DNA of 64,000 nt from Thermoplasmata archaeon. Its GTDB lineage: Archaea > Thermoplasmatota > Thermoplasmata > Lutacidiplasmatales > UBA184. Within the stretch, counting starts at the first letter, position 1. The number at the start of each line of letters is the position of its first letter. The notes under the pieces were generated by a model, which was not told the origin of the DNA, searched no databases, and saw only the letters and a program-made list of their open reading frames with translations. A program made the translations under genes and the position numbers. Positions 2,523-62,472 of the stretch are shown one piece after another. The stretch lies in the NCBI GenBank assembly GCA_022750195.1, contig JAKIWE010000001.1, positions 556,672 to 620,671 on the forward strand, given 5' to 3'.

Positions 2523-3941
2523 TCAATCTGTGTCAGCGAGACTAGTGTAGTTGTCCGCAAAGTACTGCGCCGGATTCTCCAGGAAAAGAGTAGCGTTCGC
2601 TGAGGGTGGAACGTACGGGTACCGGGCCGAATTAGGGCTGGTGAAGAACTGAGGCTCCCGGTGCAAAGAGAAGTTGAAGAAGTCGAGCGGGAGAGTTGCG
2701 CCGCAATCGCGGGCGGTAAGGCAACCCAGGCCGAATCGGACTTCCATTAAACGAAGTATCGATTCGAAACTCTCGAGGTGGTGACCGACATAGCCGGCAG
2801 GTGTCCAGGGACTGATGACGATCAACGGTACCCGGAACGAAAGGCCGAACGGGTCCACCTGGGGGGGCGCAACGTGGTCGTAGAATCCGCCGAAATCATC
2901 CCACGTAAGGAGGATGGCCGTGGAATTCCAATACGATGATCGTTCGATGCTGTTGACGATCGTCGCCACCATGTCCTCCCCCTGAGACAGATTCGCGGGT
3001 GGGTGGTCAGATGATCCCCCGGGCGGGACGAACCAGGAGATGTCCGGTAGTGAACCATTGGCAACATCGGAAAAGAACTGGGGACGGGAGGCGAAGTGGG
3101 CGACCATCGAATACGAAGGACTCCTCGCCGCGAGTGGGTTCCAGTAGGCGTAGGCACTGCCCTGAACCGTCCAGTCGACGGTGTTAATGGCGCGATCGTA
3201 ACTCAGAAGCGGCCAGTCGTAGTAGCTCCACGTCACCGAGGGCTTTCCTGCCAATTCCTCTTCGATAGTGTTCGTGGAGTTCGCCTCGTTGAGGTAGAGG
3301 TGCCTCGACTGGTTGGTCGACGAGCTGTTGAACCCGTAGTACAGCGCATACGTCGGAGTATTGGCGGCGACGATGTACCAGTGGTTGGGAAGGCTGTAGC
3401 TCAGCGTCGACGAGAAGAAATTGTCACCGAGACCGTATTCCTGGGCCAGATCCCAGTAGACGGGAAGGGTCGAACCGTTGTAGTGGCCCAAGGTCTCAGT
3501 CGAATTGTTTTCGGCATAGTAGAAACCATCCATTCTGCCGCTGTCGTAGTCGATGTGCGACGCGGACCACGTATGGAAGATGTCCGGGACAACGAGCGAT
3601 GTTTCGTTGAACGGCCGGGCACAGCTTCCTGTACCGGAGAACGGGTTCTCAGGGATGCATCCGCCAGCTGGGAGTCCGTTGGCGACCTCGGGGCAGACCG
3701 ACGACGTGGCGAGACAGTACTCCCCAAAGTAGTTGTCGTAGGCGTGGTTTTCCATCAGCACGAAAACTATGTGCTGGATTTGTCCGAGTCCCGACATCGG
3801 AATCGGATTCGGAGTGTGCCCGACTTCTTCGAACGTGAATGTCGCAGCTCCGACGACCAGCGCCGCCGCTAGGAGCGCGAAAAGCCAGCGCCTGGAGCGG
3901 CGAGCGGACCGACTCGTTCCGTTGGGGCCCGGTTCTGTCAT
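2523..3941 (-). CDS. AcpA/phospholipase C-type secreted phosphoesterase
   Basis: A 472-residue protein with a basic N-terminus and one hydrophobic segment (about residues 19-36), placing the rest outside the membrane. The first metal/nucleophile block [17 protein letters not shown] lies near residues 57-73 and the distal metal block [13 protein letters not shown] near 350. Both are characteristic of PF04185 phosphoesterases (AcpA, phospholipase C) of the alkaline phosphatase superfamily. Many Asn-X-Ser/Thr sequons suggest an N-glycosylated extracellular enzyme. It closely resembles the truncated gene at 1-677 and the gene at 59078-60469, sharing with the latter the C-terminal ending DTD. The substrate could be phosphomonoesters, phosphodiesters or phospholipid head groups; sequence alone does not decide. 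Confidence 0.9.
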
Positions 3942-14091: not shown

Positions 14092-15876
14092 CTACGTAAG
14101 GTCGGCGCCGCCGACAATTGTGAGTCGTCGCGGGACTGCTCCCTCAGGGGGGTTCGCAACGTCTTTGAGCGGGAGTGCAAGTTGCACAGCCCTTGAGCCC
14201 GCGGTGTTGTTCGGCCCATCGAATGAAGCGACTGTGAAGGTGTAGGTCTTACCCGGGGTCAAGCCGATCACTTGGAAGGCGTGCGTCGACGGACCGACGC
14301 GCACAGCGTGACCACCCCACGTTACGTTCCAGCCTGCCACCGGGGCTTTTCCGAAGCCCTCGGACCATGTTAGCCGGACAGCCGAGGCCGAGAGTACCGT
14401 GCCACGAAGGGACACGGGAGGGTCCGGCGATCCTAGCGGTTGAAAGATGGCAGGATAACGGGCCGTTGAGTAGTTGGCCGCGAAGTAGATGGGCTTTCGA
14501 GGCTTGGCATGGGTGTCGAAGAAGCCGAGAAGCAAGGGGGCCTTTGCGTCGCGGACAGTAAGACTGGGCAACCCAAATCGCCACTCGATTGTACGGAGAA
14601 CGGATTCAAAGTAGCCCAAGTCGTGCGAGACATAGGCCTCCGGGGTGTACGCACTGATCACGATCAGGGGTACACGGAGTCCCAGCGCGGAACCGTTGAT
14701 CGTCGGCGGCCGAACAGTGTCGTAGAACCCGCCGTACTCGTCCATGGTCACGAAGACCGCGGTCGACTTCCATTCCGGAGATTGCTCCACGGCATTCACG
14801 TAACTGGCGACGAACCCTTCACACCAACCCAGTGCGTAGGGGGGATGGCAAGACTGTACCGGGGGCGGAATCACCCACGAGACGTTTGGAAGCGCGCCAG
14901 CAGCCGCATCCGCGAAGAACTGGCTACGGTCGACGTACCGGGATGAGAATTCAGTGCCGTAGCTTTCGCTCCGAGCGAATGTAGGATCCCAGAAACCATA
15001 GGCCGCACCAGAAGCGACCGCGCGCGAGTAGGACGACGGGAGCAACTGATCGTAATACTTCCATGTGACGTTCGTCCCGTTGAAAAGATCCTCGAAGGTG
15101 TTAGTGTGATTCGCCTCCTCGAGGTAAGATTGGTCGACTGTGTAATTCCCAGTCAGGTTCGGGCCAAAAGTACCGTCCTCCAGTTCCATTGCTTGGACGC
15201 ACAGAACGTTGCAGGTTTGATTCCCTTGCAAGGTCGCAATCCGGTCTCCGACGTAGTAGTGAATAGACGACCAAGGAGCGGCCCCGGCTTCCTCGAACCA
15301 ATGGTTGGGCAAAGAGTAGCTTAGGTTGGAAGCGAAGAACCGGTCCGATAGGCCATATTGCTGAGCGAGATCCCAAAATAGTGCGGCCGTGCTTCCGTTG
15401 TAATACCCAAAAGATTCCAAGGCGCGCGTCTTGTTCGGAGGGAGGCCCAATTCTCCAGCATAGAAGTTGTCCATTCGTCCGTTGTCGAATGCGGTTGTAC
15501 TAGAGAGCCATCCGTGTCCTATATCCGTCAAATTGATCGTCGCCGAGGCGAAAGGATAGGGTCGGATGCAGCCCGCACCCGGGTTGCTGGGGAAGTACGG
15601 AATGCAGTAGCTCTGGTTGAGTCCAGTCGCCGTATCGTCGCAGTTCCTCGAGAGAGTCGGGCAGTAGGTCCCAAATAGGTTGTCGAAGGCGTGGTTCTCC
15701 ATCGTAATGATCACATAGTGACTGATAGGAAATGTCGCGGGACTGACAGCGGCCATCTGGAACTCAGCTGCGGTTGGAAAGGAGGGACCGAATTCAATAT
15801 GCTGCAGTGGGAAGTAAATCAGTCCCACGCCAATCAAGCAGACTGCGACGGTTAACGAAGCAATCCATCCTGTCAT
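14092..15876 (-). CDS. AcpA/phospholipase C-type phosphoesterase with C-terminal FN3 domain
   Basis: A roughly 594-residue extracellular enzyme. An N-terminal hydrophobic helix (about residues 3-23) is followed by [20 protein letters not shown], the first metal block of PF04185 enzymes, and by TMDEYGGFYDTVRPP as the distal block (His of the usual YDH is Thr here). Residues after about 490 form a fibronectin type III domain (VRLTWSEGF, NVTWGG, LTPGKTYTFTVASFD), absent from the three sibling phosphoesterases. The ATG at 15876 was chosen over an in-frame ATG at 15921 because a strong TATA-like box (15899-15908) lies about 28 bases upstream, fitting a leaderless transcript. FN3 domains in secreted hydrolases often bind or space polysaccharide or surface partners. 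Confidence 0.87.
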   Translation of the reverse strand: MTGWIASLTVAVCLIGVGLIYFPLQHIEFGPSFPTAAEFQMAAVSPATFPISHYVIITMENHAFDNLFGTYCPTLSRNCDDTATGLNQSYCIPYFPSNPGAGCIRPYPFASATINLTDIGHGWLSSTTAFDNGRMDNFYAGELGLPPNKTRALESFGYYNGSTAALFWDLAQQYGLSDRFFASNLSYSLPNHWFEEAGAAPWSSIHYYVGDRIATLQGNQTCNVLCVQAMELEDGTFGPNLTGNYTVDQSYLEEANHTNTFEDLFNGTNVTWKYYDQLLPSSYSRAVASGAAYGFWDPTFARSESYGTEFSSRYVDRSQFFADAAAGALPNVSWVIPPPVQSCHPPYALGWCEGFVASYVNAVEQSPEWKSTAVFVTMDEYGGFYDTVRPPTINGSALGLRVPLIVISAYTPEAYVSHDLGYFESVLRTIEWRFGLPSLTVRDAKAPLLLGFFDTHAKPRKPIYFAANYSTARYPAIFQPLGSPDPPVSLRGTVLSASAVRLTWSEGFGKAPVAGWNVTWGGHAVRVGPSTHAFQVIGLTPGKTYTFTVASFDGPNNTAGSRAVQLALPLKDVANPPEGAVPRRLTIVGGADLT

Positions 15877-15898
15877 TCCGCACCGCGAACTGGCCCAC

Positions 15899-15908
15899 GA
15901 TATATTAT
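15899..15908 (-). promoter_or_regulatory. TATA-like box for the FN3-phosphoesterase gene
   Basis: The minus strand reads ATAATATATC, the most AT-rich decamer nearby, centred about 28 bases before the ATG at 15876. It would lie inside the coding region if the upstream ATG at 15921 were used, which supports the shorter protein. Confidence 0.5.
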
Positions 15909-15921
15909 GGCGGTTCCTCAT

Positions 15922-48219: not shown

Positions 48220-48505
48220 CGGCGGCTACGTCCAGGGTTGATGTTCAGGGAGGAAACGGCGCGCTAATCAATATGTTGCCGGCACGGTGAGCGACCGTAG
48301 CGGGACCTATCCTGCAGCGTACTCCGCCTTCAGCCCTAACCTCCTCGGCGATATCCTTACGTACCTAGGCGCAACCCGTTCCGAGGTCGACGATGCCCGA
48401 CGGCGACACAGCGTCCAGCTTTGGCCGCGGGCTACTCTCCGGGCTCCCCTTAACCGGCGGACCTGTCGACCTCGAACCCACAACGATTCCGGCCCGCTCC
48501 GCAGG

Positions 48506-50431
48506 GTGAATGGAGCCGAAGTGAACCCCTCCCGAACGTCGGTGGCCCCGCGGGTGCACCGGCGCAACTCCACTCGCCACCCGGCCGCCCTCGCCCTACT
48601 CGCGGTGGGGACACTCCTGGCCCTCTCCCTCCCGCCGTACGGGGGAATCGGGGCCGTCGGATTGACCGTCAATAGATCGGCGGGGATGGAGACGCACCTC
48701 GTTGTCGTCGCAAACCATTCCATTCACGTACCGAGCAAATGCGCTCAGGGATCCGCGGCGATGACGTGCTCAAGCGCAGTCGTTCTCCCCAAGGTCTCCG
48801 CCCCCGATTGGGTGAACTTGACGCCGGGGGTCGCCGCCGGCCCCTCGGCACGGTACGGCTCGGCGATGGCCTACGATGCCCAAGACGGCTACCCGCTGCT
48901 CTTCGGTGGCGCGAACGCATCGGGCCGTACGTTGCGCGATACCTGGGCGTTCAAATCTGGTGCGTGGGTCTCGTTCACTCCGGGCGTACTGAACGTGCGC
49001 GATTCCCCGCCTCCCCTTGCGTTCGCCTCGATGTCGTACGACGCGGCCGACCACCAGGTCGTCCTGTTCGGGGGCGTCGGACCCAAAGGGGTGAACGGCC
49101 AGACCTGGGGGTTCCAAGCCGGCCATTGGACGCTCCTCGGTACCGGCGGGGGAATGTCTCCCCTGGGAAGGGTCAACGCCTCCATGGCGTACGACGCGAC
49201 GGACGGTTACCTGCTCCTCTTCGGGGGGATTTCGGCCGGCCATCTCCTGCGGGACAGCTGGAGCTTCTCTCTCGGGACGTGGACGACCCGTACGCCCACG
49301 AATCTGACCGTCGCCTCGTCCCCGACCCATCGCTCCGGGGCGGCGATGACGTACGACCCGGCCGAGGCGGCAGTGGTGCTGTTCGGTGGGGCCACGCCGA
49401 CGGCGGCGAACGACACCTGGGAGTTCTCGGGCGGTACCTGGCGGAACGTGACGGGCGGCGCGGCCCCGACGCCGCGGTATGCGACGGGATCGGGGTTTGA
49501 TGTTGCTCACGGACGGCTCGTGCTGTTCGGTGGCCTCGGTACTACGGGCGCGCTGCTGGGCGAGACGTGGACGTTCGTGTCCGGCGCTTGGAGCGACGTG
49601 ACCTCGTTGGAGACGAGCGCTCCGAGCCCGAGGGCAGCTCCCCCTATGGCGACCGTCGCCGGGGGCTCGCCGTCGGGTCAATTCTTGCTGCTCTTCGGGG
49701 GAAGCCTCGGCGGGGTGGCGGGAGGAACGGACGAATGGGAGTTCGGGGCGGGTGCGCTCAACCTCACCGCCGCGGCCGTCGTACCCTCCGCCACGGATGC
49801 CTACCTCACTGTCCAACTCTCGACGGTGGCGTTCGGCGGCTCCGGGACCTACTCCTACTCTTGGCAGGGGCTTCCGCAGGGATGCCTCTCCGCCAATCGT
49901 TCGATGCTGACCTGTCAACCGAACTCTTCCGGGCCCCCGGTGTCGATCGTCGTCACGGCGATCGACACGCAGGGGGCTACGGCCTCCAGCGCGCCGAGCC
50001 TGCTCATCGTCAACCCGATACCTACGATCGTCGGATTCACGGCGTCGCCCTACTCGGCCGTGGTGGGAGTCACGAACGTGACGTTCGTCGTCACCGTCTC
50101 GGGGGGCACGGGGCACCTTCGGTTCTCGTTCGCCGGTGTACCTCCAGGATGTGGTTCGCCGAACAGCTCTCGCTTCTCCTGCATCCCTACGGCGATCGGC
50201 GGCTACTCGCTGGTCGCGACGGTGGTCGACAACGTCAACGTGACCGGACAGGCGACGCTCAATCTAGTGGTCAGCGCGGCGGCGCCGTCGACCTTCTGGA
50301 CGGCGACCCACACCGCCGAGATCGTCGTCGGAGGGGTGGTCGTGGCGGTTGTCGCCGCGGTCGCGTGGCGCCACCACCGCAAGGTCCGCGCCCCGCCGTC
50401 GGCCCCCCAGCCGCCGGGGGGGCCAGAGTAG
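48506..50431 (+). CDS. Six-kelch-repeat surface protein with two CX9C Ig-like domains and C-terminal anchor
   Basis: A protein of about 641 residues. After a basic start and hydrophobic signal (ALALLAVGTLLALSLPP) come six kelch motifs (YDAQDGYPLLFGG, YDAADHQVVLFGG, YDATDGYLLLFGG, YDPAEAAVVLFGG, FDVAHGRLVLFGG and a final LLLFGG), enough for one propeller. Two Ig/PKD-like domains follow, each with a CX9C module (LPQGCLSAN to LTCQP; VPPGCGSPN to FSCIP), then one membrane helix and a short Pro-rich tail. The longest frame begins at 48287 but its first 73 residues look non-coding, so the GTG at 48506 is preferred; GTG at 48521 is also possible. Confidence 0.82.
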   Translation: MNGAEVNPSRTSVAPRVHRRNSTRHPAALALLAVGTLLALSLPPYGGIGAVGLTVNRSAGMETHLVVVANHSIHVPSKCAQGSAAMTCSSAVVLPKVSAPDWVNLTPGVAAGPSARYGSAMAYDAQDGYPLLFGGANASGRTLRDTWAFKSGAWVSFTPGVLNVRDSPPPLAFASMSYDAADHQVVLFGGVGPKGVNGQTWGFQAGHWTLLGTGGGMSPLGRVNASMAYDATDGYLLLFGGISAGHLLRDSWSFSLGTWTTRTPTNLTVASSPTHRSGAAMTYDPAEAAVVLFGGATPTAANDTWEFSGGTWRNVTGGAAPTPRYATGSGFDVAHGRLVLFGGLGTTGALLGETWTFVSGAWSDVTSLETSAPSPRAAPPMATVAGGSPSGQFLLLFGGSLGGVAGGTDEWEFGAGALNLTAAAVVPSATDAYLTVQLSTVAFGGSGTYSYSWQGLPQGCLSANRSMLTCQPNSSGPPVSIVVTAIDTQGATASSAPSLLIVNPIPTIVGFTASPYSAVVGVTNVTFVVTVSGGTGHLRFSFAGVPPGCGSPNSSRFSCIPTAIGGYSLVATVVDNVNVTGQATLNLVVSAAAPSTFWTATHTAEIVVGGVVVAVVAAVAWRHHRKVRAPPSAPQPPGGPE

Positions 50432-51549: not shown

Positions 51550-51743
51550 CTAGGCAGTTTGGCGTCGGTGGGGACGTAGCCGAGTGGCGCCCCGACCCAT
51601 GCGTGCTGCGCATGTCAGGGGAAAGTATACGCACCCTTTGCGGATGGGTCCCGGCGGCGCTGTCGTGTGTGCTTATGCGCATCATTACAGAACTGCCCCT
51701 ATCGGAGCAGAACGCGGGCCGGCGCCCGGGCTTCCCGTCTGTG

Positions 51744-51754
51744 AATATGTTTAT
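51744..51754 (+). promoter_or_regulatory. TATA-like region for the 1434-residue surface protein
   Basis: AATATGTTTAT, about 60 bases before the ATG at 51809, predicting a leader of roughly 30 bases and excluding the starts further upstream. Confidence 0.4.
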
Positions 51755-51808
51755 GAGTGCGCAGGAATGCGTTGTCGCCCGCCGACCTCTTCACCCCTCC
51801 GGGAACCG

Positions 51809-54800
51809 ATGCAAACGCGATACCGAACCAGCCCGAGTTTCACGCCGAACGCGGTCAACGCCGGGCTCTCCGGACTCGCGATCGCTCTCCTCCTGCTGAG
51901 CTCGTGGCCCGGCCTTAGCTCGGTGGGGGCTCGGAGTTTGGAATTCCCGGCGTTGTCAGCACCCACCGGCCCGGGGCACGTGGTCCTGGCTAGCGGTGTG
52001 ACACCCGCCTCGAGCGCTCCACGTGCCGCCATCGGAGTAGCCGCGGTGACCTCTCTACCCGGCGCCCCGGGCCTCCCCCCGCTGCCTCCTGTCGGGCCGG
52101 TCGGCTGCTTCGGGATACTGGCCGCGACCGTGCCGGCGACCCCCTACGACCCGCCGTGTCGAGGGCACGATGAAGCCACGCTGAGCTTCTACTCCAACGC
52201 TACGGGGAGCGGTGGGAACGTCACGTGGACGGCGACGCTCCCGGTCGATGCCGGACCTACGCAGAACCAATCGGACCTTTACTCCGCGGTCTGGTTCGGG
52301 ATCCCCGCTACGATCTCGTCGGCCTGGATGGGCCAATGCTTCCTCGAGGCCCAGTTCTACCCGGACGCGAGCTGGTACGATAGGTCAACGTCCAATCCCG
52401 CAGCCACGGACAACGGCAACTGGGTCGGCCGCCTGGTCGGCTGGCAGGTCGACCTCACGACCGGCCGCGAAGACACCTGTGTCTCCCAGCCCTTCTACCG
52501 CCAGGGCGCCGGCGTGGGTCAGTTCCTGAACCTTACCCAGGGTGACAAGCTTCGCATTCAGTTCGCGGGTTGGTCCGGGTCGGCGGTTGGCGAAAACGTG
52601 ACGGTGAACGACCTGACGACCGGGGCGAGCTCCTCGATCACGGCCACGAATTCCAGCGCCGGCGGCCCTATCCTCCCCGCCTACACAGCCAGCGCGTACG
52701 AGGATAGTGTGCAGTGGACCGCGGGGGGTGGCCTTCCCGCCGTCATGGGCTTTGAGCTCGGCCACGGAGGCAACCCGACGGTCCCTTCGAACAGCAGCTT
52801 CCAGGGGTGCAGCCCGGGCGTCCCTCCACCGACGGTCGTCAATCCCGCCATCCCGTGCCCTAGCTATGACCCTGCCAGCTGGGCGAACGACACCCGACAG
52901 CCGTGGGTGATCGACGCTCCGACCTTCGGAGCCGTTGGGAGCCGTTCGATGCCCGCGCAGGTCGCATTCTCCAATGATTTCGGAGGTGTCCAAGCGATCA
53001 CGACGTTGAGCAACGGGAGCTGCCTCAACCGCATCGGCAGCTCGTTCTGCACGTATCCGTGGTTCAGCTACTCCTGCCCCACCGGGGGCTTCGAGTTCGG
53101 AGCCACGAACTTCGCGGGCGTCACCACGGACTTCGGTCAACAGCTCGAGTATGCCCAGAGCTCCCATACGAACGCCCTGGGACTCTCGTACTACCCGGCC
53201 GCCAACTACTCGCTCCCCACCTGCGGGAAGTCCAGCGCGACCCTGACGGTCGGCACGAGCGGCTCCGCGGGAGGGAGCGTCGAGTTCCTCTCGCAGCTGG
53301 TCGCGCCGTCGGGAGCGCAAACCACGGCGTTCAGCCCTCTGGCGCCGGGTCCTTACTCGATCCATGCCGTCGCACCGACGGGAAGCGCGTTCTCGGGATG
53401 GTCGACCGTCGGCATGGCTCAGATCGCCGACCGGAGCTCGCCCTGGACCACCCTCGACGTCCGAGGGAACGGCTCCGTCACCGCTGGTTTCGCGGCCTCG
53501 GGACCGACCACCACCGTCTGGTTCAACGGAACCGGCGGCGGAGGTGCGGTCGCCGTCTCCCGGGCCGTCGCGGACCGCAACGGGACGCCCCTCGCCACGG
53601 TCGTCTCTGGAGGCTCCATCGTTCTGGCCGCTGGCCTCTATACGATCGAGGCCTATCCTACGCCTGGCTCCCTGTTCGCGGCGTGGTCCACCGCAGGACC
53701 GGGGGGAAGCCTAGCGGCGCCGAACGAGCCGGTCACCTGGCTGACCGTGACCGGGGCGACCTCCTCGCTCTCCGTGGCCGTCTCCTACGTCGCCTCCCTC
53801 GAGCAGGCCACGGTCGTGGTCCGCGGCATTGGAAACGGAACGCTCACGTTCGCCGGCGCGCCGGTCCCCTACTTTGCCTCGAACCACTCCTCCTTCGGCG
53901 TGTATCGGGTCGCGGTCGGAGCCTACTCGATCACGGCCACCCCGGCGGCCGGTTGGAGCTTCCTCGGATGGTCGACCGGGCCGAGCGGCATCGAAACCGA
54001 TTACGGGGCCGATGCGAACGTGTCGGTCGAGAACGGCACGACGAACCTGTCGGTGTCGATGGGGGCGCGCGTGACGTTCCTCATCACGCCTTCGACGGAC
54101 GGTCTCGCTTCGTTGGACAGCCGCGCCCCGATCGCCAACGGAACGGTGACGACACAGCCCGTGGGGAGCTACTACCTGGACGCCGTCCCGTTCGGCGGGT
54201 TCGCCTTCAAGCGATGGTCGGTCAACGACCCCTCGGCCGCTTGGATCGTCCGTCCGGGAACCTCCCACTCCCGGTTGCAACTGAACGCTTCGGTGACGAT
54301 CACCCTCACCTACCAGGTCCGGAGTGCGGTGAACCTGACGTTCCACGTTCTTCCGGTGGGCGCCGGTACGATCCAGTTCAATCTGATCAGCCCCTACGGG
54401 GACGGCGGTACCAACAAGAGCCTCGCGAACGGTACCTACCTTATCGCCGGGAACGCCGGCGCCCGGTACCGGTTCACCGGGTGGACCTTCACGGGACCGA
54501 TCTTCGTCGCGGGCGGCCTCCTCACGGTCACCGGCGCTGGCGGGGCGCTCACCGCGCATTTCACGCTCCGCTTCTACGCGGTCACCTTCGTGGCCACGTC
54601 CGGAAGCCCGGTGGTCGCGACGATCAACGGCGTCCATGCCGTCAATGGACAAACCGTCCACCTCCCCCGCGGCACGTTCAACATCAGCGCCTCGGTGGGC
54701 GTGAACACCACGTTCGTCGGTTGGTCGAGCTCCCTCCCCGTGAGCGCTCCGCCACCGTTCTCCTCGGCGGCGAAGATCACCGTCCAAACCGCTGGGACCC

Positions 54801-56113
54801 TGACCGCGCTCACGGTCCCCTACGCCGTAGGACTCCTCCTCGCCTCCCGGACCGTCTTGGACGTGGGAAGCTCCGTACAACTGACGGCTGTGGCGAACGG
54901 AACCGGTCCGTTCAGCTACGGTTGGCTCGGATTGCCCAGCGACTGCGCCTCGGCCGATTCGCCGTCGATGACGTGCGTCGCCTCGTCGGCCGGGACCCTC
55001 AGCGTGCAGGTGGCCGTGACCGGCCCGGCGGGGGTACCCGTCGAGAGCCCGGCGCTCCTCCTGCGCGTCGTGACGTCCCCGGCGGTCAGTCAGTTCACGG
55101 CAACGCCGTCGCAGTTCGACCTCGGCGGTAGCACTTCGCTCCAGGTCGCCGTCGTGGGCGGGGTCGGACCGTTCGCCTACCAGTACTTCCAGCTTCCCGG
55201 CGGGTGTCTCTCGGTCAACAGCTCGACGGAGCCGTGCACGCCCACGGCCGTCGCGGTCAGCGTAGTGGAGGTCGACGCGACGGATGCCGTCGGGGAGAGC
55301 GCGTATGCCAACGTGACGGTGACCGTCAACGCGGCCCCCTCGGTATCGTCGTTCCTGGCCAACCCATCCCCGGTGACGGTCGGGGCGGCCACGAACCTGG
55401 TGACGACCGTTCGCGGGGGCACCGGGCCCTTTACCTACCTCTACGCGGGACTACCGGCAGGATGCACGACCGCCTCTACGTCCACGTTAGTGTGCCGTCC
55501 GGGGCTCGCCGGGAACTTCTCGGTCAACGTCACCGCAACGGATGCTGATGGCGTCGGCGCTCGCGGCTCGGTCGAGCTCCAGGTCAACCCTGCGCCCGAG
55601 ATCACGGACTTCGCCGCTTCACCGTCCACGCTTGGTTTCGGGTCGAGCACGGCGTTCTCGGTTACCGCCGTGGGCGGGACGGCACCGCTCTCGTACGCGT
55701 ACACGAACCTGCCGACGGGTTGCTCGACCCAGAACAGCTCGAGCCTCGCGTGTACGCCCAGCCAAGCGGGCAGCTACCTCGTACAGGTGACGGTCGCGGA
55801 TCGGTTCGGGGTGACGGCGGGCGCTACCACCAACCTTAGCGTTACGTCGAGCGCAGGGGGAAAAGGCCCCTCGCCGGGAGGGAGCTCCATCGGGGGCCTG
55901 CCGTGGTGGGTATGGGCGCTGCTGATCGGTGCGATCGTCGTGGCGATCGCCGGAATCTGGTACCGCTTCCGGAAACCTCCCTCTCCGTCCGAGCCAGCGG
56001 GAACAGCCCCGCTGCCCCCACGAGAGTACGTCCCTCCGCCCGACGACGTGCCAGGTTGGACCGAAAGCTCCCCACCTCCCGAGACCCCTTCTTTCGAAGA
56101 GCCGCCGCCGTGA
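51809..56113 (+). CDS. Giant multi-domain surface protein: InlB-type repeats, four CX9C Ig-like domains, C-terminal anchor
   Basis: A 1434-residue protein from the ATG at 51809. After a signal peptide (LSGLAIALLLLSSWPGLSS) comes an N-terminal region of about 350 residues with a lectin-like beta-sandwich look (WVGRLVGWQVDL, VQWTAGGGLPAVMGFEL) whose family I do not recognise. Six InlB/Big-type repeats follow (each with a GW or RW in patterns such as GSAFSGWST, GWSFLGWST, RFTGWTF), then four Ig/PKD-like domains each with CX9C, a membrane helix (WWVWALLIGAIVVAIAGIWY) and a long acidic Pro-rich cytoplasmic tail. An adhesive or glycan-binding role is likely. The 75 codons upstream of the chosen start do not look coding. 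Confidence 0.85.
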   Translation: MQTRYRTSPSFTPNAVNAGLSGLAIALLLLSSWPGLSSVGARSLEFPALSAPTGPGHVVLASGVTPASSAPRAAIGVAAVTSLPGAPGLPPLPPVGPVGCFGILAATVPATPYDPPCRGHDEATLSFYSNATGSGGNVTWTATLPVDAGPTQNQSDLYSAVWFGIPATISSAWMGQCFLEAQFYPDASWYDRSTSNPAATDNGNWVGRLVGWQVDLTTGREDTCVSQPFYRQGAGVGQFLNLTQGDKLRIQFAGWSGSAVGENVTVNDLTTGASSSITATNSSAGGPILPAYTASAYEDSVQWTAGGGLPAVMGFELGHGGNPTVPSNSSFQGCSPGVPPPTVVNPAIPCPSYDPASWANDTRQPWVIDAPTFGAVGSRSMPAQVAFSNDFGGVQAITTLSNGSCLNRIGSSFCTYPWFSYSCPTGGFEFGATNFAGVTTDFGQQLEYAQSSHTNALGLSYYPAANYSLPTCGKSSATLTVGTSGSAGGSVEFLSQLVAPSGAQTTAFSPLAPGPYSIHAVAPTGSAFSGWSTVGMAQIADRSSPWTTLDVRGNGSVTAGFAASGPTTTVWFNGTGGGGAVAVSRAVADRNGTPLATVVSGGSIVLAAGLYTIEAYPTPGSLFAAWSTAGPGGSLAAPNEPVTWLTVTGATSSLSVAVSYVASLEQATVVVRGIGNGTLTFAGAPVPYFASNHSSFGVYRVAVGAYSITATPAAGWSFLGWSTGPSGIETDYGADANVSVENGTTNLSVSMGARVTFLITPSTDGLASLDSRAPIANGTVTTQPVGSYYLDAVPFGGFAFKRWSVNDPSAAWIVRPGTSHSRLQLNASVTITLTYQVRSAVNLTFHVLPVGAGTIQFNLISPYGDGGTNKSLANGTYLIAGNAGARYRFTGWTFTGPIFVAGGLLTVTGAGGALTAHFTLRFYAVTFVATSGSPVVATINGVHAVNGQTVHLPRGTFNISASVGVNTTFVGWSSSLPVSAPPPFSSAAKITVQTAGTLTALTVPYAVGLLLASRTVLDVGSSVQLTAVANGTGPFSYGWLGLPSDCASADSPSMTCVASSAGTLSVQVAVTGPAGVPVESPALLLRVVTSPAVSQFTATPSQFDLGGSTSLQVAVVGGVGPFAYQYFQLPGGCLSVNSSTEPCTPTAVAVSVVEVDATDAVGESAYANVTVTVNAAPSVSSFLANPSPVTVGAATNLVTTVRGGTGPFTYLYAGLPAGCTTASTSTLVCRPGLAGNFSVNVTATDADGVGARGSVELQVNPAPEITDFAASPSTLGFGSSTAFSVTAVGGTAPLSYAYTNLPTGCSTQNSSSLACTPSQAGSYLVQVTVADRFGVTAGATTNLSVTSSAGGKGPSPGGSSIGGLPWWVWALLIGAIVVAIAGIWYRFRKPPSPSEPAGTAPLPPREYVPPPDDVPGWTESSPPPETPSFEEPPP
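54835..55857 (+). repeat. Four tandem Ig-like domains with invariant CX9C
   Basis: Codons for the paired Cys start at 54944/54974, 55204/55234, 55463/55493 and 55721/55751: exactly 30 bases apart in each domain, within an LPxGC...C pattern. Same module occurs at 26181/26211, 49883/49913 and 50150/50180 in other genes. Confidence 0.85.
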
Positions 56114-56203: not shown

Positions 56204-59008
56204 ATGACCGCCGAACCCGGTGACCCACCGCATCGCTGGGCCTTCGTGCAGACCTTCGCGGTCATCGCCGTCCTGCTGGCGGTCGTCGGTTCGACCGTCG
56301 TGCCGGCTCACGGGAGCGACCGGCCGAATGCGGAGGGCCGACAGCTCGCACCTTCCCACGGCGTCGCGGCGCCTCGACTGGCGATCGCACCGCTTCCCTC
56401 CTCGAACTTCTCGGGACCTTCGAATTGGACCGAACAGATCGACTACGGCGCGGTCAGCGGGACGACCGGATCGGGAGGCCTCAAGATCCAGGGGGATTCG
56501 TGCGTCGCGAACGGGACGTTCGTGTACTGCGTGGGAGGCCAGAACTTCCAGACGGGCACCGATCTCAGCGACGTGTTCTTTGCCAACGTCTCGGCCGCCG
56601 GAGTGAGCGGTCCGTGGAGCGAGACGACCGATTACGCCGCCGCATCAGGGACCACCGGGTCGGGCGGCGTCGGTGTCGAGTTTCCGAGCTGTGTCTACTA
56701 TCAGGGCTACGTCTACTGCGTGGGGGGGGCTCATTCGGGCTCACCGTCCATCGTTAGCCAGGTGTTCTTCGCCCCACTCTCGGCCCAAGGCGTCGGGGCG
56801 TGGGCGGAGACGACCGACTACGGAGCGGCCTCCGGGAGTTCGGGGACCGGCGGCGTCGCGGCGTTCGACCTCAGCTGCGCTCCGGCGAACGGGTACGCCT
56901 ACTGTGTGGGCGGGGGGAACTCGAAGGTCTTCTTCGCCTCGCTCTCCTCGAGCGGGGTCGGTGCCTGGACGGAGACCACCGACTTCGCGGCCACCTCCGG
57001 TACGAGCGGGAGCGGCGGGGAATCCGTCACGGCTACCTCGTGCGTGACGAACGCCTCGTACCTGTACTGTATCGGCGGCAGCGCGGGCGGGGCCACGAGC
57101 AAGGTGTTCTTCGCACCGGTGTCCTCGAGCGGCGTCGGCGCGTGGACGGAAGCGACGGACTACGGGGCCGCCTCGGGGACGGTGGGGAGCGGCGGGCTCC
57201 CGATCTACGCTACAGCGTGCCTCGTGTACGTCCAGTGGGTTCTCTGTGTCGACGGCAACAACCGTACCAATACCGCCGTGGACAATGTCTCCTACGCACA
57301 GCTCTCGTCGACCGGGGTCGGCGCGTGGGCGGCCGGGACCGCGTACGGCGACGCGCCCCTCTTCTCGTACTACCTCAGCTGCGTTCTTGCTAAACTGAAC
57401 GCGCTCTGCACGGGGGGCGGCGTGGCGGAGGTCTTCCTCGCCTATCTTGTGTCGACTCCGCCGGGCCACCCCGCCCTCACCACCAGCCTGTCGTCCACGA
57501 CCGTGCTGGTCGGAAGCATGTTCAACGATACCGCCACGATCACCGGTGGGACGGTCGCCTCGGGGGAGCTCATCGTCTTCAAGGTCTATCCCAACGGGGG
57601 TTGCTTGGCACCGCTGAGCTCGTACGGCTCCGCGCCGCTCCTAGGGACGACCGCGACGTCCCCCGATTTCACCGCGACCCTCCCCCCCGCGGGCTACATG
57701 TCCGTTCGGGCCACATTCACGGGGGACGCGAGGAACCAACCCGCTGCCTCCTCGTGCGAGCAGTTGCATGTCTTGGCCAACTCAAGGCTGACCACCGCAC
57801 TGTCGCAGACCACCGCCCGCCCTGGGGGGACGTACGGCGACGTGGCGACTCTCAGCGCGACGACGCCGAACGCCGGGGGAACGGTGACGTACACGCAGAA
57901 CGATGACCGCACCTGCACGACACCGACCGGACAGACCTACATCGTCTCCGTGACGAACGGCCAGGTCGGCTCGAACGCGCTGTTCAGTACCGCCCCCTCC
58001 CCGACCAGCTACAACTCTATCGAGGTCTCCTACAGCGGCGACGCCAACAACGCTCCCGCGGGACCAGTCTGCGAACCGATCCCGGTCGCCGCACCGACCA
58101 GAGCGACGGTCACGATCGATTGCACCCCTACCGCGATGACCGTCGGCCAGAGCGCGACGTGCACGATCACCGTCACCGGCAGCTCCGGTCCCATCGTGGG
58201 GGCGGTCGTCACCCTCTACACCGACTCGACCACCGGCAAGTTCTCCCCTGCTCTCTGCAAGACCGGAGCCGCCGGCACCTGCACCGTAACGTACACCGAC
58301 ACCACGGAGGGGGTCCCGACCTTGACCGCCAGCTATCCCGGGGACATGAACAATGTCGGGTCGAGGGGGAGTACGACCGTGTTCAACCTGGCGCAACCTG
58401 CGGTCGGCACCGCTTCGACCTCGACGACCGCCTCGGGAGGAAAGTCGTCCGCGGACCAGACGAGCAGCACCGACGTCTCGGTCTCGATCTCCGGCTCGAG
58501 CGCTTCGGACGGCACGAACGTGACGATCGTCTCGGTCCACCTCGCCCAAGCCCTCGCCGGTACCCCGTCGTTCCCGCTGACGAACTACCTCGGAGCCTAC
58601 GACGTGAAGGTCGTGGGCCTCACCGACGGCACGGCGACCGTCTGCCTGGCCAACCCGCACGTCGATTCGGCCTCGGACGTGGAGTTCGTGACTGCGAACT
58701 CGTGGGTGGCAGCAAGCGGCACCCAGGCGTTGCCGGGAACGAGAGTGTGCGGCAATATCCCGGTCGTCGACCTCCAGGGCACTCCCGTCAGCGGCGGGGA
58801 TCCCCCCGCCTCGCAGTCGAAATCCTCCGGGAGCTTGGGCGTCGAGGAGCTCGCTGCGATTGGAGCGGCCGTCCTCGTGGTCGTGGTCGTCCTCGCCGTG
58901 CTCCTAGTCCGGGGCAGGAAACGCGGGCCAGCTCCGCCGGCCACGACTCCCGCCGGGAGCGCCGGCGAGCCGTCCGAGATGGGGAACCCACCTTCGAGCA
59001 CTCCGTAG
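56204..59008 (+). CDS. Six-blade propeller surface protein with paired Cys in every blade, Ig-like domains and C-terminal anchor
   Basis: A 934-residue protein with signal peptide (about residues 13-34), then six repeats of about 60 residues starting at W75, W138, W200, W255, W314 and W375, each of the form WxETTDYGAxSG...SCxxxxxxxxCVGG...VFFAxLSSxGVGA. Each contains CX8C (Cys100/109, 163/172, 225/234, 280/289, 339/348, 393/402). Residues 420-740 form Ig-like domains of the bacterial Big_3/5 kind (TTSLSSTTVLVGSMF, SVSYSGDANN-like), followed by a helix (about 880-905) and a short Pro-rich tail. Binding of surface partners is probable; there is no sign of catalysis. Confidence 0.85.
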   Translation: MTAEPGDPPHRWAFVQTFAVIAVLLAVVGSTVVPAHGSDRPNAEGRQLAPSHGVAAPRLAIAPLPSSNFSGPSNWTEQIDYGAVSGTTGSGGLKIQGDSCVANGTFVYCVGGQNFQTGTDLSDVFFANVSAAGVSGPWSETTDYAAASGTTGSGGVGVEFPSCVYYQGYVYCVGGAHSGSPSIVSQVFFAPLSAQGVGAWAETTDYGAASGSSGTGGVAAFDLSCAPANGYAYCVGGGNSKVFFASLSSSGVGAWTETTDFAATSGTSGSGGESVTATSCVTNASYLYCIGGSAGGATSKVFFAPVSSSGVGAWTEATDYGAASGTVGSGGLPIYATACLVYVQWVLCVDGNNRTNTAVDNVSYAQLSSTGVGAWAAGTAYGDAPLFSYYLSCVLAKLNALCTGGGVAEVFLAYLVSTPPGHPALTTSLSSTTVLVGSMFNDTATITGGTVASGELIVFKVYPNGGCLAPLSSYGSAPLLGTTATSPDFTATLPPAGYMSVRATFTGDARNQPAASSCEQLHVLANSRLTTALSQTTARPGGTYGDVATLSATTPNAGGTVTYTQNDDRTCTTPTGQTYIVSVTNGQVGSNALFSTAPSPTSYNSIEVSYSGDANNAPAGPVCEPIPVAAPTRATVTIDCTPTAMTVGQSATCTITVTGSSGPIVGAVVTLYTDSTTGKFSPALCKTGAAGTCTVTYTDTTEGVPTLTASYPGDMNNVGSRGSTTVFNLAQPAVGTASTSTTASGGKSSADQTSSTDVSVSISGSSASDGTNVTIVSVHLAQALAGTPSFPLTNYLGAYDVKVVGLTDGTATVCLANPHVDSASDVEFVTANSWVAASGTQALPGTRVCGNIPVVDLQGTPVSGGDPPASQSKSSGSLGVEELAAIGAAVLVVVVVLAVLLVRGRKRGPAPPATTPAGSAGEPSEMGNPPSSTP
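56426..57440 (+). repeat. Six propeller repeats with CX8C
   Basis: Repeat units of about 180 bases in frame; the last unit is the most degenerate (lacks the SGTxGSGG stretch) but keeps both Cys and the spacing. Confidence 0.85.
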
Positions 59009-59077: not shown

Positions 59078-60469
59078 CTAGTCGGTGTCGGAGATGTTGC
59101 CGGTCCAGGTGGGGGCGAAGTCCACGGAATCCTCGATGTATCCGTTGGCGGGGGAGTGGGCGACGTAAGGGTAGGCGGCGCTCAACGCGGAGGGGAAGGA
59201 GATCGGGGACCGGTGGATCGAGAAGTTGAAGAAGGCCGAAGGGAGCGTGGCGTTGCAGTCGCGGCTCGTCAGGCAGCCGAGCCCGAACCGCCACTCCTCG
59301 AAGTGGAGGACCGAATCGAAGCTCAACGTCGTGTGGTCGACCTGCCCCGCCGGGGTCCAGGGCGAGATCACGAGGAACGGAACTCGGAAGGAGAGTCCGT
59401 AACCGTCGATCTGCGGGGGGGCGACGTGGTCGTAGAAGCCGCCGAAATCGTCCCACGTCACGAAGATCGCGGTGGAGTTCCAGTTCCGAGACTGCGCCAC
59501 CGCGTTGACGACCGAGGAGACCAGGTTCTCTCCGCGGGTGAGGTTCGCCATCGGGTGGTCGGAGAAGTTGGGTTCGGGGATGACCCAGCTCAGGGCCGGG
59601 AAATTGGCCCCCTTCACGTCCTGGAAGAAGTGGGGAACTGGGACGAAGTGCGACGTGAGCGCGTACGACTGGTTCTTCCCCGCGAACGGGTTCCAGATGT
59701 TGTACGCGCTCCCCGCGGCCTCGGCGCCGAAGTTGTTGATCGCCGTCGAGTACGGGAGCAGGCTCCAGTCGTAGTACTTCCAGCTCACCGAGCTCTTGTT
59801 CACGAGCTCTTGCTCGATCGTCGGCGTGACGTTCGCCTCGTCCAGGTAGACGTGCTTCTGTCGCGTGGAGAAGTCGGCGAGGATGCCCTTGTGGATGATG
59901 GCGGGGGTCGTCCCGGCGACGATGTACCAGTGGTTGGGGAGGCTGTTGGTGAGCGTCGAGGAGTAGAAGTTGTCCGAGAGACCGAACTCCTGGGCCATGT
60001 CCCAATAGACCGGCAGCACCGAGCCGTTGTACGTCCCGAACGGGACCGAGCCGGTCTTCTCGCCCTGATAGAAACCGTTCATCGAGCCGTTGTTGTAGTC
60101 GATATGCGAGACGTTCCACGTGTGCGGGGGGCTCCGGGTGGTAAGGTTGGCCTTCGTGAAATTGTACGGCCGGATACACCCCTGCGAAGCGTTCGTCAGA
60201 TTGATTGGGAGGCAGGTCCCGGCGGGGATGCCGTTCGCGGCGTCGGGGCAGTAGGGGCCCATGACCTGACAGTAGGTCCCGAAGTAGTTGTCGAAGGCGT
60301 GGTTCTCCATCAGCACGAGGACGATGTGCTTGATCGCGGAGAACTTCCCGACCGAGTTGGTCGGGGCCGCCGAGGTCGGCGGCAGAACATAGACTCCCGA
60401 GACCACGAGCAGGCCCAGGATCCCCAAGGCTCCGACGGCACGTCCTCCCGGCCGTCGCCGGCCCCGCAT
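59078..60469 (-). CDS. AcpA/phospholipase C-type secreted phosphoesterase
   Basis: A 463-residue protein with an N-terminal anchor (about residues 12-30), first metal block [51 protein letters not shown] and distal metal block [19 protein letters not shown]. It is the GC-rich counterpart of the enzymes at 1-677 and 2523-3941 and also ends in DTD. Numerous sequons suggest extracellular glycosylation. It should cleave phosphate esters outside the cell; the adjacent PstS three genes away would fit phosphate scavenging, the glycosyltransferase setting would fit editing of a phosphorylated glycan. Confidence 0.92.
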
Positions 60470-61254: not shown

Positions 61255-62472
61255 TCATTGACACGGAGACACGGCCGCCCCGTTGAACCGGAGGCTGCCG
61301 ATACCGGCCTGGGTCGAGCTGACGGCCGCTGAAGGCAGGGGCACGTAGCTGAGAGCGGTCGCGTCGTTCTGGCCGGCAGTGACGACCCAGCTGAGCCATT
61401 GGCCCAACGCCACGGATTTTTCGAGGGAGGGCTGAAAGCCCCGGTCGGTCGACTGGTACGTGTAAAGGTAGGCGAGCGTCACGAGCGGGTAGTCCTTCGG
61501 TCCTGCGGCATCCACGAGGGAGACGTTCTCCCAGTCTGCGGAGGCCGAGGGAAGCGAGATCGAGCTCGCCTCCGAGGCGATCGCGGAGGCGATCGAACGC
61601 TCGGTAGGACGGACGAACTCCCCCGAGGGATTCCGGACGTTCGCGTAGGCCAGGTGGGGCGTGGCGAGGGCGTCGGTGAGGTCGACGTATCCGATCGTGT
61701 ACGCGCGTCCGTGCACGAAGTTGGCCAGCTTAGCGTCGGACGGTTGGCCGACCTGAGCGGGATCGCCGGGCCACAATACGGAGATCCCTACTCCCGTTCC
61801 GTGACTCCAGTTCAGACTCTCCCGGGCCAGGAAGTCGGTCATGACGAAGGACGTCCCCGCCGCATCCGAGCGGTGGACGGCGGTGATTGTCGCGTTCGGG
61901 AGGGCGAGCCCGGAGTTGTTGCGCGCCAACACCGGGTCGTTCCAACGAGTCACCTTCCCAAGGTAGATGTCGGCCAGGTCGCCCCCGGAAAGATTGAGAG
62001 GGGTGCGAAGGCCCGGCAGGTTGTAGACGATCGCGATCCCGCCGGCGGCCACGGGCAGGGTGAGCACCGGGCTCGGGAACTTGGCGCGCTCGTTCGCTCC
62101 AAGCGGAGCCTCGGATGCTGCGAAGTCGACGGTCTTCTGGAGGAGCGACGTGACCCCGGCTCCCGAATCGGTCGCCTGATAATCGACGGCGGAGCCGGAC
62201 ACATTCAGAAACTGAGCCGCCCAGGCACTCTCGAGCGGGAGCAGGAAGGTCGCTCCCGCGCCCGTCAGCGTCTCCCCCGTCGCGCAGGCCGCGAGACCGT
62301 GCCGAGGAGCCCACCAGCCGAGCTCGAAGCCCACGACGACGACGAGGCCGGCCGCAACGATCGCGCCGAGAACGAGCCCGAGGCGACGCCGAGAGGTTCG
62401 CCGAGGAGGCGGAGGGGGCGGGGCCGCGATTGCGCTCGGGAAGTCGCCCGAAAGAGACGGAACGGACGTCAA
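61255..62472 (-). CDS. pstS: Phosphate-binding protein, PstS-like, membrane-anchored
   Basis: A 405-residue substrate-binding protein. A Pro-rich cytoplasmic N-terminus precedes one helix (about residues 31-50) that would anchor it outside. The binding core reads TGAGATFLLPLESAWAAQF, YQATDSGAGVTSLLQK, DFAASEAPLG, LADIYLGKVTRWNDP and AVHRSDAAGTSFVMTDF, the standard PstS blocks. No PstC, PstA or PstB lies in the window, so either the transporter is elsewhere or the protein works as a stand-alone phosphate (or sulfate-related) binder. It lies between a glycosyltransferase and cysC on the same strand. Confidence 0.9.
   Translation of the reverse strand: MTSVPSLSGDFPSAIAAPPPPPPRRTSRRRLGLVLGAIVAAGLVVVVGFELGWWAPRHGLAACATGETLTGAGATFLLPLESAWAAQFLNVSGSAVDYQATDSGAGVTSLLQKTVDFAASEAPLGANERAKFPSPVLTLPVAAGGIAIVYNLPGLRTPLNLSGGDLADIYLGKVTRWNDPVLARNNSGLALPNATITAVHRSDAAGTSFVMTDFLARESLNWSHGTGVGISVLWPGDPAQVGQPSDAKLANFVHGRAYTIGYVDLTDALATPHLAYANVRNPSGEFVRPTERSIASAIASEASSISLPSASADWENVSLVDAAGPKDYPLVTLAYLYTYQSTDRGFQPSLEKSVALGQWLSWVVTAGQNDATALSYVPLPSAAVSSTQAGIGSLRFNGAAVSPCQ

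Follow-up and report, generated by a model that had tools for sequence, protein, structure and literature searches.

Why would a protein carry two cysteines in every blade of a propeller, and what could these pairs do? The question is raised by an open reading frame at positions 56204 to 59008 (+ strand, ATG start, 934 aa) of the window, the whole 64,000-nucleotide stretch of archaeal DNA that was analysed. A preliminary description of this DNA had proposed a six-bladed propeller with one CX8C pair per blade, possibly disulfide-stapled, and had named no propeller family with such a pattern. The encoded protein consists, in this order, of a signal segment, a six-bladed Kelch propeller, an Ig-like region, a C-terminal transmembrane helix and a short tail. 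The best explanation as a whole, to which we give a probability of about three in four, is that of a membrane-anchored surface Kelch propeller with one intrablade disulfide in each blade that serves as a binding or adhesion head.

The translation and repeat segmentation place the pairs exactly where they had been claimed, all on the + strand: Cys100 and Cys109 in blade 1 (56501..56530), Cys163 and Cys172 in blade 2 (56690..56719), Cys225 and Cys234 in blade 3 (56876..56905), Cys280 and Cys289 in blade 4 (57041..57070), and Cys339 and Cys348 in blade 5 (57218..57247). Even the degenerate blade 6 retains its pair, as had been noted, with Cys393 and Cys402 (57380..57409). The 12 propeller cysteines make up six pairs with none left over, the next cysteine occurs only from residue 467 on, and the cysteine codons, which span 56501 to 57409, lie within the coordinates that had been given for the propeller. 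When 12 cysteines were placed at random in the 356-aa propeller, no more than four pairs with a spacing of nine arose in 200,000 trials, and six were never reached. The blades are only about 62–78% identical at the DNA level in the repeat stretches detected, and very recent duplication therefore does not account for the conservation of the cysteines. Each repeat is laid out as a Trp, a T-rich turn ending with Y, in blades 1–5 an SGTTGSGG-like insert, the element SC-X8-C-V/I-GG, a variable loop, and VFFAxLSSxGVG before the next Trp. Blades 1–5 (56440-57200, + strand) share a near-repeated TDYGAASGTTGSGG-type insert ahead of the first cysteine, which is also seen in the relatives L003, L103, L109 and L129, and these Gly/Ser inserts could form a crown of loops on one face of the propeller.

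The profile search seeded on the repeat and the structure prediction that had been recommended both lead to the Kelch superfamily. The window protein itself stays below the Pfam cut-offs for Kelch_1 (16.8 vs 20.1) and Kelch_6 (17.2 vs 25.3) and has no significant match in NCBIfam; its relatives L002, L093, L101 and L109 exceed the cut-offs of Kelch models in Pfam, with L002 and L101 scoring 61.4 and 122.5 bits against PF24681 (cut-off 50). A profile of six sequences found a solved Kelch protein in the PDB with an E-value of 3.2e-10, and the best PDB sequence match in the profile search was Plasmodium K13. AlphaFold models were made of two proteins, the window protein (mean pLDDT 61.7, pTM 0.73, loops with low pLDDT) and L003 (mean pLDDT 57), each from a two-sequence alignment. 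The window model has a repeating four-strand order and closes into a disc of six four-stranded blades, and its top Foldseek matches are the Kelch domains of LZTR1 (E 2.7e-11), KLHDC3, SAKe6 and Keap1. The Kelch GG after the second strand and one Trp per repeat are present, the Trp column being conserved to 100% and the GG columns to 87–93% in the family, with DG in place of GG in window blade 5. Most single-propeller relatives likewise have six blades. Judged by the profile matches of its relatives and by AlphaFold and Foldseek, the window protein, with its propeller at residues 70–421 (56411..57466, + strand), is a divergent Kelch propeller. Repeat segmentation and predicted structures thus support the proposed six blades with one staple-like cysteine pair each, and the idea that the propeller belongs to no named family has to be given up at the level of the superfamily. 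It holds for the pattern, as the per-blade cysteine pair is absent from the Pfam and NCBIfam models hit and from the PDB alignments shown.

In 6/6 window blades, the two cysteines precede the Kelch GG at positions −11 and −2; Cys −2 replaces the V or A normally found in IYVIGG and IYAIGG, respectively, whereas Cys −11 lies in the strand before. The turn between the two strands has two residues in most blades, and the positions −11 and −2 are therefore opposed on neighbouring antiparallel strands. By model numbering, the window model has C162 in strand 161–165 and C171 in strand 168–173, and C276 in strand 275–279 and C285 in strand 282–286; in the L003 model, C162/C171 are in strands 157–165/168–175, and C282/C291 in strands 278–285/288–294. 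Two blades of the window model, 1 and 4, have a less exact cysteine register. A location of the two cysteines on opposite faces, which would have spoken against a staple, was not seen in either model: the pair lies in adjacent strands of one hairpin, with matching register in most blades. Judged from the predicted strand boundaries, the pair would thus face across the first β-hairpin of each blade. This arrangement bears on the idea that the disulfides link neighbouring blades in a ring, with Cys −2 of each blade bonded to Cys −11 of the blade that follows. The putative inter-blade C532-C580 bond reported for the Kelch domain of K13, the top PDB sequence match (PMC6650413), speaks for such a ring, but in both predicted structures the cysteines are opposed across a two-residue hairpin.

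Further evidence on the pairing comes from the relatives. A single-blade profile was run over all loci, and a protein was admitted if three or more of its blades were paired, which gave 58 distinct proteins. Profile scoring found both cysteines in 351 of their blades, neither in 2, and a single one in 0, with 13 segments left unscored. Among the latter, inspection by hand revealed three blades without either cysteine, in L014, L068 and L133, as well as a wider-spaced pair in two blades of L135, and several others were linker or truncated pieces, such as that of L138, which ends at the contig end. Over about 58 proteins, this amounts to about 353 blades with both cysteines, about five with neither, and none with one. 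The 46 other Kelch proteins, among which the CX8C-seeded profile and the three-pair threshold would also have placed cysteine-poor members of the clade, have 201 blades with neither cysteine, 15 with one, and 0 with both, and among the more remote Kelch proteins in the samples of the two archaeal groups, the majority have no pairs. Independent loss would be expected to give about 75 single losses per five double losses, a figure to be taken as a guide and not as a probability, as the blades are related. Conservation reaches 99% in both cysteine columns and is comparable to that of the Kelch Trp. The all-or-none behaviour at the sequence level argues strongly for an intrablade disulfide, and together with the structural models it indicates that the cysteine pair of every blade is very probably a disulfide staple.

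The spacing points in the same direction. Most blades have CX8C, L003 has CX14C, and L135 has CX11C, CX16C and CX22C; the pairing is kept in blades with a longer hairpin loop, as would be predicted for a disulfide that spans a hairpin, and this argues against the inter-blade ring. Moreover, L014, L068 and L112 have blades with neither cysteine whose neighbours keep both, and a ring would strand two thiols there, so that we regard it as very improbable. L014 and L068 also have additional cysteine pairs, CX5C and CX6C, in the post-GG loop beside the hairpin pairs. Paired cysteines in repeats are known from metal sites as well, and the cysteines might in principle bind a metal or an iron–sulfur cluster and not form a disulfide. 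However, each site offers two cysteines with 8 to 22 residues between them and no conserved third or fourth ligand, and the positions that are otherwise conserved hold W, Y, P, G, A, S and V, which makes metal binding hardly credible. The intrablade disulfide is thus the reading that we follow. The genome contains oxidase genes above the cut-off, two of the VKOR type and two DsbA-like (Thioredoxin_4); of the VKOR genes, one lies on a contig of 5.7 kb and may be a contamination, and of the DsbA-like genes, one shares the 1.2-Mb contig with the window. We infer that the bonds form, that they stabilise the propeller, that it is located at the surface and that it binds a ligand: the first β-hairpin of each blade would be clamped by one disulfide from Cys −11 to Cys −2, made outside the membrane by VKOR/DsbA-type oxidases, and the staples would hold the blades while the loops vary.

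A hydrophobic segment near the N-terminus (residues 13–37, 56240..56314, + strand), recognised by eye in the translation, is a probable signal peptide or anchor. The C-terminal transmembrane helix (residues 882–903, 58847..58912, + strand) is followed by a short basic tail and contains the hydropathy peak of the whole protein (3.26 at residue 884, 19-residue window average). These two segments make it likely that the protein is membrane-anchored and that the propeller is positioned outside the membrane. Pfam matched three Big_3_5-type stretches C-terminal to the propeller, among them the bacterial Ig-like domain at residues 641–726 (58124..58381, + strand; PF16640, E 1.8e-8), for which the 934-aa protein scores 35.3 bits, just under the cut-off of 35.5. 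The architecture of head, Ig-like stalk and anchor and the analogy to surface propellers of other archaea make binding or adhesion the most probable function, and the propeller would be the head that performs it. An enzyme of the Kelch type, e.g. a sugar epimerase, is the alternative, and relatives do match the NANM epimerase and mutarotase models weakly. Their scores are far under the cut-offs (NANM 23.5–28.2 bits vs 45, mutarotase 23.9 vs 243), neither they nor the window protein pass the curated NANM model, the window protein has no match to either type of model, and the top 20 conserved columns include no charged residue or His. We therefore consider an enzyme unlikely and prefer the binding head.

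The gene neighbourhoods of four relatives, compared as open reading frames only, have no neighbour gene in common, and none of the neighbouring genes points to a particular ligand. In the window, two neighbouring surface proteins (51584-56113 and 48287-50431, both + strand) have PKD/Ig-like repeats with one cysteine pair each, always ten positions apart (1121/1131, 1208/1218, 1294/1304, 1380/1390 and 533/543, 622/632, respectively), and stapled repeats may thus be general in this surface proteome. The protein at 48287-50431 (+) also contains a second, classic Kelch propeller with Kelch_3, Kelch_4 and PF24681 above cut-off, whose blades are without cysteine pairs. The window further encodes three phosphoesterases that resemble phospholipase C or acid phosphatases (2526-3941, 14095-15921 and 59081-60469, all − strand), and a phosphate-binding-like protein (61258-62472, −). 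An AglJ-like archaeal N-glycosylation gene, which scores below the cut-off, and the relatives are consistent with an archaeal source of the DNA.

How widespread is this type of propeller? Stapled-type proteins occur in 5/103 genomes of the window's family, and two relatives from another genus of that family have 12 blades with 12 pairs each. A MAG titled Thaumarchaeota (G429) encodes two such proteins, including L003, and in the archaeal order of this genome 75/201 genomes match the profile, with up to 13 matches per genome; the CX8C type was found there in at least 22/201 genomes, counted over the loci read. The idea that the CX8C pattern is private to the window gene was dropped after these matches. 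A search of plasmids, phages and viral contigs revealed no relative of the stapled type: a plasmid match at E 2e-3 was an ordinary weak Kelch match, and 17 viral matches to the cysteine pattern included no stapled propeller. Similar cysteine-bearing Kelch repeats may occur in ARMAN archaea, and cysteine-free YYAPLNANGTIGTW-type Kelch repeats in bacteria.

A tree of 57 rows puts the window protein into a group of five (support 100/99) whose other members, L103, L109, L129 and L013, all come from the other order and have SGTTGSGG-like inserts in most blades. L103, L109 and L129, the closest relatives, extend about 270–390 residues beyond the transmembrane helix, with no Pfam match in this region. 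The branches with good support require a minimum of three changes between the two archaeal groups, with bootstrap values incompletely settled. As the window protein is nested in the clade of the other order, the tree suggests lateral transfer between the two groups as the simplest reading, and contamination is unlikely because the window's contig is long (1.2 Mb).

The Kelch fold is known, and the libraries and literature searched gave no example of a family characterised by one intrablade staple per blade; in the open-licence literature, represented mostly by titles and abstracts, no Kelch propeller was described whose blades all contain a disulfide. A large archaeal family of stapled propellers, common to two groups, is thus apparently undescribed. 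It is a tentative proposal, for which the odds are somewhat below even, that this is an expanded archaeal surface Kelch family in which each blade is closed by a disulfide, which has moved repeatedly between the two groups and which provides a robust scaffold for variable binding loops. If this is true, a disulfide in each blade would offer a natural means of keeping a repeat protein intact outside the cell, and the stapled Kelch disc would be the counterpart in nature of the Kelch propellers designed as SAKe6. The expansion to many copies in one order, along with the probable transfer to a second one, suggests a role in surface recognition for a family without a name, and the absence of single-cysteine blades makes the pairing directly testable.

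Among known systems, influenza neuraminidase and other viral six-bladed propellers share the number of blades (Foldseek E ~1e-6), but neuraminidase is a sialidase propeller without the Kelch motif, and the match is far weaker than those to Kelch domains. Disulfides within blades are known in neuraminidase-type propellers. For the ARMAN-like Mia14, secreted archaeal surface-layer proteins in which Kelch/YVTN propellers are fused to adhesion-type modules have been proposed to act in cell–cell interaction, and the description of these propellers consulted for the comparison mentions no cysteine pattern (PMC5498576). In the relative L002, too, Kelch and YVTN propellers are combined in one protein. 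With Kelch propellers (PF01344, PF13964, PF24681; KLHL12, Keap1, LZTR1 and the designed SAKe6), the window protein has the fold, the GG motif, the hairpin and the Trp in common. It differs from them in the third-strand motif, which is VYYAxLSSxGVGxW and not the usual YDPxTxxW, and in its per-blade cysteine pair, which the aligned solved Kelch structures do not have. Kelch13 of Plasmodium falciparum (PDB 4YY8, 4ZGC) is another Kelch propeller for which a disulfide is reported; this putative bond is a single one, connects blade III with blade IV and is present in PDB 4ZGC (PMC6650413). Whereas this bond is single and links two blades, the putative bonds of the archaeal propeller would lie inside the blades, one in each of them.
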